Positions 49,177-52,694 of a stretch of 64,000 nt of DNA are shown one piece after another (positions within the stretch are counted from its first letter, which is position 1; every line of letters starts with the position of its first letter). Below the pieces are notes generated by a model. It saw nothing but the letters and a program-made list of their open reading frames with translations, ran no database searches and was not told where the DNA came from. The position numbers were made by a program, and so were the translations under genes. The stretch comes from Arthrobacter agilis (GTDB lineage: Bacteria > Actinomycetota > Actinomycetes > Actinomycetales > Micrococcaceae). The stretch spans positions 248,001 through 312,000 of the forward strand of contig NZ_NFSC01000031.1 in the NCBI RefSeq assembly GCF_002157505.1, given 5' to 3'.

Positions 49177-49223
49177 GATACCGCGGGCACTCCCTCCCCA
49201 GAAACGAGGGTGCCCGCGGTATC
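49177..49223 (-). terminator. Terminator of the secreted-peptide gene
   Basis: GATACCGCGGGCAC (49177-49190) pairs with the complementary arm ending at 49223, extended by CCCTC/GAGGG, giving a stem of about 18 pairs with one bulged base. On the minus strand it is followed by TCTCTTTAACT, so it would terminate transcription 63 bases beyond the peptide gene's stop. Confidence 0.85.
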
Positions 49224-49285
49224 GGTACTGCGGATCAGACCGGAAACTCAAAGACCCTGCGAGACGTCAGGATCAAGCGATCGGC

Positions 49286-49426
49286 TTAGTAGGGCCAGTA
49301 GCCGACGCGATCGGTCGAGGAGACAGTGGTATCGGAGCCGGCCTTGGCAGGAGCCGCGTTGGCTGCTGCAGCACCTCCGCTGACGAGGAGGGTTGCGAGC
49401 AGGAGGGCAGAGGTGAAGCGCTTCAT
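49286..49426 (-). CDS. Small secreted peptide precursor (46 residues)
   Basis: ATG at 49424-49426, with AAGGA about 8 bases upstream, ending at TAA 49286-49288. Residues 1-24 form a textbook Sec signal peptide: MKRFTSALLLATLLVSGG then AAAANA, cleavage expected after A-N-A. The remaining 22 residues begin APAKAGSD and end DRVGYWPY, giving an aromatic C-terminus like processed bacterial signalling peptides. It has its own promoter-like boxes (49498-49526) and terminator (49177-49223), and is divergent from a TPR-like protein. Unrelated to any peptide family I can name; a Phr/PapR-like pheromone precursor is the leading inference, a small secreted structural or antimicrobial peptide the alternative. 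Confidence 0.8.
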   Translation of the reverse strand: MKRFTSALLLATLLVSGGAAAANAAPAKAGSDTTVSSTDRVGYWPY

Positions 49427-49497
49427 GGCGTACGTCCTTATGGCTTGATCGACAGTGGTTGGAGTTCCGCATAGGTACCACGGCGTCCTCCGTATTT

Positions 49498-49526
49498 ATC
49501 GTAAGCCACACCAGTCACTTCTGTAA
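49498..49526 (-). promoter_or_regulatory. Promoter of the secreted-peptide gene, with inverted repeat
   Basis: On the minus strand, TTACAG (49521-49526) and TACGAT (49498-49503) are separated by exactly 17 bases, about 72 bases before the peptide ATG. The -35 box overlaps the inverted repeat TCTGT-A-ACAGA (49520-49530), itself flanked by ACTTC (49516-49520) and GAAGT (49537-49541), a plausible regulator site. Confidence 0.6.
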
Positions 49527-49632
49527 CAGATTCTACGAAGTTATTTTGAACTATTTCCGCAGGATTGTTCCCCGAGCCTTCTGAACCGAGAATGGTATGA
49601 GTCAGACCGTCAACCGGAAGTCATAGGTACGC

Positions 49633-50673
49633 ATGTCACATCAGCACGATTCCGGCCAACGCATGCTGCTCGAGTTCCAAGCCCGCGACGCATGGAACCA
49701 GAGAAACTACGCGGCGGCGCAGAAGCTTGCCGAAGAGTGGGCCGCTATGTCGGCGGCGAACCATGAAGAGGAGAGTTGGTGGAACGCCTCCTTCCTGGTG
49801 TCGGAATGCCTCCGCAAACAGGACCTGATGAACGAGTCATTGGCAGTGGCGGATGAACTGGCGCACCACCCCCTGACTCAGCAGTCGGTGGCATTGCAAG
49901 CGCGAATCTTCACCCTGCGCGCTTTCGCTTTGCAGGGCAGCGGTGACCTGACCACGGCAGTTTCAGCAGCCCGAAGCGCGGTCGCAGCGGCCCTGACCGA
50001 GCCGGTCCACAACGCCATCGCCATCGAGGCGCAAAACGCGCTCATTGCTTCTCTGGCCGAGAGTGTCCTCCTGGAAGATGCTTGGAGGGAGTGTCTCGTG
50101 CTTGCCGAGATGCTATCAGCAGAACCAAATAGCCAAACGAGCGGTCTCGGCTACTGGGCCATCGGCAATGTGGCCTTCCTCCTCAAACACATCACCGAGG
50201 GTGTCGCTTATCACCAGCAGGCTGCCAAGAACCTGTCGCCGACCAATGACCTCGACCTATGGGCTCGGTTCAACCGAGGATCGGCCCAGTTCCGCCTCAC
50301 GGCTGGTTTGATCGAGCCCGAGACACTTGAATGCATAGAACGTGCCGAACTAGCTAGCTCGATCGTCGGCGGCACCCAGCGGGATCAGCTTGAGTTGCGC
50401 CTGAACCGGGCCCAATGGCTTGTATTGACCGGGCAGTTCGACGCCGCGGTCGAACTGCTCTCCGCGATCATCGACCAGAAGCATCTGCTCGCCAAGCACA
50501 TCGCGGCACAGGCTCATTTCCTGCTGGGACAAGCCCAGTCTGCACGCAGCAGGGACACCGAGGCGATCATCAATCTTGAAGAGAGCGAAAATCTCTTCCT
50601 CGAGTCCGGCGCGGAAGACAGGGCGTCAGCGGCCAGGGCCCTGATCCACAGCCTGCAGGGGTTGCGGGGATAA
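49633..50673 (+). CDS. TPR-like helical protein, candidate peptide receptor
   Basis: 346 residues, all helical by pattern, with repeated helix pairs of ~35-40 residues (e.g. LLEFQARDAWNQRNYAAAQKLAEEWAAM, SLAVADELAHH, LRLNRAQWLVLTGQFDAAVELLSAII, QAHFLLGQAQSARSRDTEAIINLEESENLF). No HTH, no signal peptide, no membrane segment. Size and build resemble Rap-type receptors (~380 residues, TPR, no HTH) more than XRE-TPR regulators. A GGAAG about 13 bases upstream is a weak ribosome binding site. Codons such as ATA, CTA, TCA, AAT and CAA are used more than in neighbours, suggesting acquisition by transfer. It is divergent from the secreted peptide gene. Receptor function is inferred. Confidence 0.85.
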   Translation: MSHQHDSGQRMLLEFQARDAWNQRNYAAAQKLAEEWAAMSAANHEEESWWNASFLVSECLRKQDLMNESLAVADELAHHPLTQQSVALQARIFTLRAFALQGSGDLTTAVSAARSAVAAALTEPVHNAIAIEAQNALIASLAESVLLEDAWRECLVLAEMLSAEPNSQTSGLGYWAIGNVAFLLKHITEGVAYHQQAAKNLSPTNDLDLWARFNRGSAQFRLTAGLIEPETLECIERAELASSIVGGTQRDQLELRLNRAQWLVLTGQFDAAVELLSAIIDQKHLLAKHIAAQAHFLLGQAQSARSRDTEAIINLEESENLFLESGAEDRASAARALIHSLQGLRG

Positions 50674-51119
50674 GACGGCCCCGATCTCCTGACCGTTGTC
50701 AAGAAACCGTCCCTCGAAGATGCCACGAGTTGACTGCTGGCCCTGCTGGCATAGAGTCATCTCAGGCCCCGGTCGGGCCGGGCGTTTTCCCCCATTACTC
50801 CCACCCTGGCCGGGGCTCATTCATGCCCGGACTGAACCGAGGGCCAGCGCGGCGCGGACGGGCGAGGCACGTCGGTAGGATCCGCGGGGAGGAATGCTAA
50901 TCTTGCCCCCGTCAGGTAGTGCGGATGCATCATGGATCCGGTCACTGCAGGACATGCGCGACGGCAGAGGTCGACGCGCTCCATTCCTTGTTCGGCGGCG
51001 GCAACTCGGGGGTAGCGCCATGACGACGATCATCGTCTGCACCACGCGGCCCTGTCACCGCGATGGCAGCCGGGCCCGTCCCGCAGGACGGGTTCCCTCC
51101 GGAATGTACGCTGGGACCG
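50674..51119 (+). other. 446-base intergenic region before the GGDEF-EAL gene
   Basis: No convincing gene. A weak hairpin GGCCC-CGGTC-GGGCC (50765-50779) followed by GGGCGTTTTCC could terminate the TPR transcript. A perfect 7-bp stem CCCGTCC/GGACGGG with a 4-base loop (51075-51092) lies 27 bases before the GGDEF-EAL start. An open frame at 50894-51130 has a misplaced Shine-Dalgarno and Arg-rich, unlikely protein, and is not called. Confidence 0.5.
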
Positions 51120-52694
51120 ATGAGCGCTGACCACAAGGACCCCCGGCTCGCGATGCTGGTCGAGAGCATCGTCCGGCTTTCCCGGGGAGAATTGAGCAGC
51201 CGCATCGAACCCTCGACGGCGAGGGACGAGGTCGACGCCGTCATCACCGGAGTGAACCTGCTCGCGGAGGAGCTCGAGCAGGTCTACGAGCAGTTCGAGA
51301 AGCGCGTCGAGAGCCGCACCGCCATGCTTCGCCAGGCGCACCTGGACATGATGAAGATGGCGATGTCCGACGCCCTGACCGGCCTCGCCAACCGCGTCGC
51401 ACTCATGGAAGGGATCGAGGAAGCGCTCGGCCAGGCCGCGAACGGAGCACTGCCCCCGGCCCTTCTGCTCCTCGACCTGGACAGCTTCAAGAACGTGAAC
51501 GACCGCTTCGGGCACGACGCCGGCGACCGCGTCCTCCAGGAAGTCGCCGCTCGGCTCAACAGCGTCGTGCGCGAGAGCGACCTCGTGGCGCGTCTCGGCG
51601 GCGACGAGTTCGCGATCCTGCTTCCTGCCGCATCCAGGGAAGTCGCCACCCAGGTAGCGCGCCGCGCCCTCGAGGTCCTGGGCGAACAGATCCAGCTGGA
51701 TTCGCTCTACGTCACTGCCAAGGCGAGCATCGGTGTGCGCCTGGGCGCTCCCGGTCAGACGGCCGACGACCTCCTGCTGGATGCGGACACGGCGATGTAC
51801 GCGGCAAAGCGCGAGGGGCGCAGCATCATCAAGGTCTTCGAACCGGTGATGCTGTACTCGCGGCAGCTCCGGAGCCAGATGGCCACCGAGCTGCGGGGTG
51901 CCATCAGTTCCAATGAGCTCATCCTCCACTACCAGCCGGTGGTGGAGCTCGCGACGAACCGGATCCTGGGCGTCGAGGTCCTCGTGCGGTGGCAGCACCC
52001 CCTGCGCGGACTGATTCCCCCGGACACCTTCATCCCGCTGGCCGAGGAGATCGGGGTCATCCACGACCTCGACCGCTGGGTCATGTCCACGTCACTGAGG
52101 CAGCTCGCCCAGTGGCGCAGCGACTTCGCACTCGACGACGACTTCCAGCTGAGGGTCAACCTGTCCGCCGTCGAACTCAAGCAGCTGGACCTCGTCGACC
52201 ACGTCCGGTCACTGCTCCGCGCACTGGACCTGCCGGCGCACAGCCTCGTGATCGAGATCACCGAAACGGCGATCGTGACGCGCGGCGAGGTGGAGATGTA
52301 CTCGCTGCTGAGCCTGCAGCAGCTCGGGGTCGGCATCGAGATCGACGACTTCGGAACGGGCTATTCCTCCATCAGCTACCTCCGCGAGCTACCCGTGAGC
52401 ATGGTCAAGGTGGACCGCTCCCTCCTGGTCGAGCTGAACACGAGGGCCGGCCAGCTCGAGTTCGTCGCGGCGATCCTGCAGCTCATCCGGGCGGCCGGAC
52501 TCGAAGCGGTCTTCGAGGGCATCGAGACGCGGGAGCAGGCGGACCAGTTGCGGGCGCTCGGATGCGCCAGCGGCCAGGGGTACTACTTCAGCCGCCCCCT
52601 GCCCACCGACGACGCGTCAGCGCTGCTCGCGACCACGCGTTATCTCCGCGCCGGCGAGGGCATCGACGGTTCCGAGATCGCACCGTCCCGCTGA
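51120..52694 (+). CDS. Soluble GGDEF-EAL c-di-GMP turnover protein
   Basis: 524 residues from the ATG at 51120. A HAMP-like/coiled-coil N-terminus (about 1-80, MLVESIVRLSRGEL, then LAEELEQVYEQFEKRVESRT) lacks membrane helices. The GGDEF motif is intact at 160-164 with an I-site RESD at 151-154, giving product inhibition. The EAL domain has EVL at 286-288 in place of EAL (ExLxR kept), with NLSA, EITETA, DDFGTGYSS, KVDRS and EGIET all present, so both activities may be possible. The signal is not identifiable from sequence. It lies downstream of the TPR/peptide pair, perhaps coincidentally. Confidence 0.9.
   Translation: MSADHKDPRLAMLVESIVRLSRGELSSRIEPSTARDEVDAVITGVNLLAEELEQVYEQFEKRVESRTAMLRQAHLDMMKMAMSDALTGLANRVALMEGIEEALGQAANGALPPALLLLDLDSFKNVNDRFGHDAGDRVLQEVAARLNSVVRESDLVARLGGDEFAILLPAASREVATQVARRALEVLGEQIQLDSLYVTAKASIGVRLGAPGQTADDLLLDADTAMYAAKREGRSIIKVFEPVMLYSRQLRSQMATELRGAISSNELILHYQPVVELATNRILGVEVLVRWQHPLRGLIPPDTFIPLAEEIGVIHDLDRWVMSTSLRQLAQWRSDFALDDDFQLRVNLSAVELKQLDLVDHVRSLLRALDLPAHSLVIEITETAIVTRGEVEMYSLLSLQQLGVGIEIDDFGTGYSSISYLRELPVSMVKVDRSLLVELNTRAGQLEFVAAILQLIRAAGLEAVFEGIETREQADQLRALGCASGQGYYFSRPLPTDDASALLATTRYLRAGEGIDGSEIAPSR

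Follow-up and report, generated by a model that had tools for sequence, protein, structure and literature searches.

The cytosolic peptide-pheromone receptors described to date come from Firmicutes and from mobile elements of these bacteria, where RRNPP/RRNPPA systems are characterised, in the accessible text of PMC10075063, by a TPR receptor of 250–500 aa and an adjacent, Sec-exported propeptide of 10–100 aa. That paper, the introduction of which describes actinobacterial signals as typically enzyme-made small molecules, reports the use of RRNPP_detector on Firmicutes and viruses, and the accessible text of an RRNPPA evolution study likewise covers Firmicutes (PMC9765709). No such system appears in the accessible portions of an actinobacterial quorum-sensing review (PMC4748050), a 2026 quorum-sensing review (PMC13220807) or a paper on luxR genes in Arthrobacter (PMC9659744), and no actinobacterial case was found in a literature search combining RRNPP with Arthrobacter or Actinomycetota, the reach of which excluded most subscription papers and bioRxiv preprints. 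Here, a divergent gene pair from a 64,000-nucleotide stretch of Arthrobacter agilis DNA (the window) is compared with its relatives and with these described systems.

The propeptide gene and its TPR-like neighbour

The small gene of the pair (49286–49426, minus strand) starts with ATG and encodes a 46 aa propeptide, MKRFTSALLLATLLVSGGAAAANA/APAKAGSDTTVSSTDRVGYWPY, divided at an AxA site into a predicted Sec-type signal peptide (residues 1–24) and a secreted part of 22 residues. A charged start and a hydrophobic stretch precede the AxA site, and the residues that follow it close on VGYWPY, the codons of which (49289–49306, minus strand) specify the candidate mature signal, a case of the core [VI]Gx-WP-x, which in relatives is C-terminal or repeated two to eight times. 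The Shine–Dalgarno sequence AAGGA (49435–49439, minus strand) is placed 8 nt before the ATG, and an intrinsic-terminator hairpin (49177–49223, minus strand) stands 3′ of the gene, between it and an FAH-type gene; the 76-nt fold has a free energy of −37.2 kcal/mol (z −4.3) and is followed by CUCUUUAA. The initial annotation had described this gene in the same terms, with the Sec signal, 22-residue product, Shine–Dalgarno sequence and terminator all borne out, and had also given it a promoter; the divergent intergenic region (49427–49632, unstranded) presumably holds the promoters of both genes, but a simple sigma-70 scan called none there, including for the propeptide gene. At Rfam gathering scores, the window yielded two tRNAs only.

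Applied to both strands of the 64-kb window, the strict ORF rule used for all locus counts (35–140 aa, a hydrophobic start and WP near the end) returned the propeptide ORF as its single candidate. Searching the genus with the peptide gave matches at E up to 1 in 38/38 genomes, the many weak ones among them probably reflecting signal peptides that match by chance; the best match extends from residue 1 to residue 45 or 46 in 35 of the 38, with E no higher than 0.014. The propeptide has a pN/pS of 0.34 over 17 orthologues in the 46-aa class, and within the genus constraint is no stronger on the last eight residues (0.36) than on the signal peptide (0.33) or linker (0.35); the WP pair alone stands out, being invariant in all 17. 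A chance ORF was rejected on this ratio together with same-rule controls on other strands and regions, and a leader peptide of the downstream FAH gene was rejected on the strong hairpin between the two genes and on the occurrence of the pair in other contexts in other genera.

The receptor candidate is encoded divergently (49633–50673, plus strand) and has 346 aa, with no HTH match found, in keeping with the initial description of a TPR-like protein without a DNA-binding domain. Its TPR_12 match is weak (E 7e-5; 23.4 bits, below the Pfam cut-off of 30.1), and an AlphaFold2 model generated from a four-sequence input is all-helical, with paired helices in a TPR-like arrangement and a mean pLDDT of 88.6; on secondary structure alone, the helix pairs start at the N-terminus and no separate bundle is evident. 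The best 50 of 1547 matches in a fold search are generic TPR superhelices, for example, LGN and MalT domain III, and include no named RRNPP receptor. Conservation across 25 diverse relatives peaks in helices A4, A5 and B5. A candidate peptide groove is marked on helix A4 by the codons for W175 to N179 (50155–50169, plus strand), with W175 conserved in 25/25 and N179 in 24/25 aligned relatives, and the same register recurs one repeat later on helix A5 with W210 to N214 (50260–50274, plus strand), both residues being present in 25/25. Both W/N pairs occupy what we take to be TPR consensus positions 5 and 9, on the groove side. An asparagine of the groove is described as the peptide-backbone anchor of RNPP receptors in the accessible text of PMC3601957. 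In RapF such an asparagine, on a TPR helix A, is N227; N179 and N214, conserved on helices A4 and A5, are candidate counterparts. The TPR protein is present in 38/38 genus genomes and gave no match to phage and plasmid collections, so that there is no sign of a mobile-element origin in the collections searched.

Pairing and a repeated core among relatives

Receptor loci were drawn from the genus, family and order, together with three named records (Arthrobacter sp. fls2-241-R2A-200, Paenarthrobacter nicotinovorans and Arthrobacter ipis). With HTH-bearing and HTH-less receptors taken together, 144 of the 295 family genomes, and 17 of the 32 genera, match at E up to 1e-10; the order search matched 23 of 347 genomes at E 1e-15 (20 from the window's family and 3 from another), a search of the phylum at E 1e-12 matched 4 of 396, and at those thresholds the receptor family is therefore largely confined to Micrococcaceae. 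Altogether 121 receptor loci were found, of which 10 with less than 700 bp upstream were left out, leaving 111 counted and 109 after removal of duplicates (the near-identical strains L091 and L094 may both remain); these are mostly best-scoring matches, a non-random sample. An XRE HTH profile split the 109 into 72 HTH-less and 37 HTH loci, and signal peptides were called from simple hydrophobicity, charge and AxA rules.

Under the strict rule, a divergent Sec-type WP propeptide ORF is found at 70 of the 72 HTH-less loci, the kind of neighbour that the initial annotation had expected of TPR homologues, and at 20 of the 37 HTH loci, the other 17 being without one. One HTH-less miss (L111) has an ORF in the same place that ends TTLFPIIF; the second is a tandem unit at a contig break in genome G017, in which a peptide ORF ending IDNWPH adjoins FAH at the start of another contig. 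Two HTH loci passed over by the rule carry repeats nonetheless: two IGNWPDPM copies seen by eye at L121, and three IGDWPLGG copies behind a poor signal peptide at L077, recovered by eye and in a looser scan. As controls, the same strand upstream of the 111 receptor loci gave 0 strict-rule candidates, and the regions downstream of receptors gave 8 in 250,568 strand-bases, six of these being the peptide that belongs to a second tandem unit and the other two looking like chance. HTH-less receptors form one group in a quick tree (SH-aLRT 85), which fits a single loss or gain of the HTH; because they form one such group, and because 42 of the 72 come from the window's genus, the linkage counts are not counts of independent events. 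The initial pairing of a secreted peptide with an HTH-less TPR protein holds within this branch, while HTH-bearing relatives (37 of the 109 loci) also exist.

Two tandem peptide–receptor units occur in seven genus genomes (G011, G012, G017, G031, G035, G036 and G037; loci L061–L067). In the quick tree, the unit-1 receptors form one clade, accompanied by ID[DN]WP peptides, and those of unit 2 form a separate clade, accompanied by xGNWP peptides; since both units of one genome have the same species history, this sorting points to receptor–peptide pairing.

The core was counted in 162 copies across 90 propeptides, with one to eight copies in each, and has the shared form [VI]-G-x-W-P-x. As WP is demanded by the ORF rule, the evidence for pairing lies in the locus count and not in the count of W and P letters. 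Ahead of WP, glycine occupies position −2 in 134/162 copies and valine or isoleucine position −3 in 140/162 (72 and 88 of the 98 copies in the HTH-less set; 62 and 52 of the 64 in the HTH set), and 57 of the 70 HTH-less propeptides stop one residue after WP. Counted copies are identical over xxWP in 39/39 multi-copy propeptides, ranging from two IGWWPN copies in Paenarthrobacter, four xVGNWPD in G012 and four TGNWPN beside the HTH receptor of L134 to a maximum of eight VGDWPH in L119. Three of the 90 propeptides exceed 100 aa (101, 103 and 117). Repeats that have lost WP, in L117 and L139, were left out of the copy count; in L117 (2790–2966), one of two copies is without Trp, IGNSPD beside IGNWPDPM, a decaying repeat. 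Firmicutes propeptides of AimR, NprR, PlcR and Rap carry up to six copies in the accessible text of PMC9765709; pheromone precursors can show such a pattern, in which a short core recurs exactly, set apart by spacers. Conservation of the YWPY end, raised in the initial annotation, proved partial, with the aromatic–proline WP of the [VI]Gx-WP-x core shared and the whole YWPY ending not conserved; this shared core, together with the pairing, supports the RRNPP-type peptide–receptor reading proposed there.

Several further loci were noted. The genus genomes hold a second, weaker TPR match elsewhere, which in six cases read is an XRE-TPR protein; a WP-repeat ORF is located near one of these six paralogues, and no peptide candidate came up near the other five. 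In the window's own genome this second match (6794–8020 of L074, contig C24) is an XRE-TPR regulator, near which no WP peptide was found and after which a 426-residue secreted-looking ORF follows. The HTH-TPR loci L116, L119 and L134 have WP propeptides with 2–8 copies, and the genes adjoining their receptors, which we take to be purC and purD, set these loci apart in context from the HTH-less branch. Divergent secreted-type ORFs also accompany receptor relatives in another family of the order, with three TVGGSWPT repeats in L156 (2746–2922) and an SDTWPA end in L157 (2813–2983); the WP code may reach beyond Micrococcaceae.

A GGDEF-EAL neighbour and the proposed circuit

A HAMP-GGDEF-EAL protein encoded beyond the receptor in the window (51063–52694, plus strand; an internal ATG at 51120 fits its relatives better by eye) was missed by the initial annotation and is, from its domain matches and its linkage in relatives, a candidate output enzyme. 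GGDEF-EAL genes are present in the fetched flank of 55 of the 72 HTH-less loci, downstream at 51 and upstream at 4, and in that of 0/37 HTH loci (26 with at least 2.4 kb downstream), the latter being expected if HTH receptors act on DNA. The other 17 HTH-less loci belong to 13 genomes, in all 13 of which the closest GGDEF-EAL relative shares its contig and strand with a receptor, the nearest one being 4.5–5.0 kb away; in one of them (G030), this nearest receptor belongs to the other, broken unit. Linkage recurs across genera in different flanks, and the upstream position at four loci implies that it survived a rearrangement. In L093 and L094, from Arthrobacter-group named records, 4 bp are shared by the receptor ORF and the GGDEF-EAL ORF, as judged from mechanically assigned ORF starts; in the window the two are separated by 389 bp, and therefore need not form one operon. 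A terminator suggested by eye between the two genes at about 50765–50795 was rejected, its fold being near that of shuffled sequences (z −1.0). Two GGDEF and two EAL matches were found in the window's genome, and in three of the 38 genus genomes (G012, G031 and G036) the linked GGDEF-EAL protein is the only EAL match.

Other genes recur in these surroundings. A STAS-like ORF, assigned to DUF7793 by Pfam in the one tested, often adjoins the GGDEF-EAL gene. In two checked loci, an opposite-strand CBM5-12 gene, with a GH18 (chitinase-type) match below the Pfam cut-off, is inserted between receptor and GGDEF-EAL (5859–7418 of L067; 4691–6256 of L096). A histidine kinase gene, GAF-HisKA-HATPase by Pfam, adjoins the propeptide gene in L093 (1688–3559), as does one similar by eye in L095 (1836–3545), and the kinase might belong to the circuit in Arthrobacter-group loci.

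An RRNPP-like peptide-pheromone system, with a GGDEF-EAL output and an HTH arm acting on transcription, is considered the probable explanation of the pair, and from the comparison we infer its export, processing, import, binding and output (with the sign of that output) along the following lines. The small gene would give rise to a Sec-exported propeptide, from which the [VI]Gx-WP-x core, C-terminal and in relatives often repeated, would be released outside the cell; at high peptide levels, an oligopeptide importer would take the core back up, to be bound in the cytosol by the TPR protein, in its concave groove near W175/N179 and W210/N214. Having no DNA-binding domain, the HTH-less receptor would work by contacting another protein, most likely the GGDEF-EAL protein encoded near it, through which peptide level would tune c-di-GMP, and HTH-bearing relatives paired with a peptide of this kind would represent a transcription-factor arm of the family. 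Import is possible given nine SBP_bac_5 matches above cut-off in the window's genome, which are candidate peptide-binding proteins; no importer gene was seen directly adjoining the pair in the window. A more specific proposal is put forward tentatively, namely that this is an actinobacterial pheromone family with receptors independent of those of Firmicutes RRNPP systems, or too distant from them for recognition, in which the HTH-less receptor directly regulates the GGDEF-EAL enzyme, in some genomes the sole EAL protein found, and protein contact would thus couple peptide quorum sensing to c-di-GMP.

The identity of the receptor's partner is where the closest rival diverges. The peptide could be a pheromone and the HTH-less TPR protein could target a transcription factor or other partner, either Rap-like or the XRE-TPR paralogue, with GGDEF-EAL as a syntenic neighbour only; the 389-bp gap in the window and the 4.5–5.0 kb in 13 genomes would suit such an arrangement, as would the intervening CBM5-12/GH18-like gene on the opposite strand in two checked genomes and the second, weaker TPR match of the genus, with its WP-repeat ORF at one of the six XRE-TPR proteins read. 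This is judged rather unlikely because the GGDEF-EAL linkage is kept from genus to genus, with differing flanks and in either position (51 downstream and 4 upstream), because the ORFs overlap by 4 bp in two of the named Arthrobacter-group records, and because 0/37 HTH relatives have a GGDEF-EAL neighbour.

Multi-core RiPPs include products with repeated cores, a feature shared with the propeptides described here, and the secreted peptide might in principle be an antimicrobial or RiPP-type product with the TPR protein as its regulator or protector. Such a function is very improbable: among loci with ORFs read, in a non-systematic survey, no maturation enzyme, transporter or immunity-type gene was recognised by the pair, the core is common to several genera, and the same core accompanies HTH-bearing regulators in other contexts. 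Retention of the pairing both at 70/72 HTH-less loci and where units are duplicated in tandem, together with the pairing of the same core with HTH receptors elsewhere, argues against a peptide that acts outside the cell on a wall or membrane receptor, with the TPR gene merely sharing a divergent promoter region; predicted Sec-type export and the want of an importer gene directly beside the pair in the window would accord with extracellular action, to which we assign a slight chance. Should the RRNPP-like pheromone system be correct, a conserved and often multi-copy peptide code, with HTH and HTH-less receptors, would offer a testable language for Actinobacteria, and the GGDEF-EAL link would, if true, connect quorum sensing by peptides with c-di-GMP; at about six residues, the core proposed as the signal can readily be synthesised and tested.

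Comparison with described systems

Judged on sequence features, the system is classed as RRNPP-like, the properties sought by the detector having been found here with simpler tests: the receptor has 346 aa, a TPR-like model and TPR fold matches (TPR_12 falling below the Pfam cut-off), and an adjacent Sec-type propeptide, by hydrophobicity, charge and AxA rules, is present in the window and at 70/72 HTH-less loci. No RNPP-type Pfam or NCBIfam match is listed for the receptor at E up to 1, and a PDB profile search matched mainly TPR, PPR and designed proteins, with no RRNPP chain among the 25 sequences at E up to 1; one HTH relative weakly matches PlcR, in the HTH part only (E 0.045). The system is filed without a named subfamily because no sequence match to one was obtained and none is among the best 50 of 1547 fold matches.

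Rap–Phr of Bacillus resembles the pair in having an HTH-less TPR receptor, a neighbouring Sec propeptide with a C-terminal signal, and action via a protein partner, which here is a putative one. Rap–Phr genes run in the same direction, whereas the genes here are divergent, are actinobacterial and encode a receptor with no Rap family match. Rap phosphatases have no HTH, an N-terminal 3-helix bundle and a response regulator as target; the receptor here has no HTH match and is linked to a GGDEF-EAL gene, and its partner is probably a c-di-GMP enzyme in place of a response regulator. The HTH-TPR relatives with multi-copy propeptides recall NprR–NprX and PlcR–PapR of Bacillus, from which they differ in peptide core and phylum, the sequence match being confined to the weak one to the PlcR HTH. 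ComR–XIP of Streptococcus offers a further likeness, an HTH-TPR receptor that reads a short peptide rich in Trp; the XIP peptide has a WW motif, ComS is exported by another route, and no ComR is among the PDB sequence matches of the receptor. On the output side, the likeness is to DSF–RpfR of Burkholderia, where a quorum signal is tied to a GGDEF-EAL protein, the domain make-up of RpfR including GGDEF-EAL; DSF is, however, a fatty acid bound by the enzyme itself, without a peptide or TPR receptor, whereas in the system proposed here a TPR protein would read a secreted peptide and pass the signal to the enzyme.
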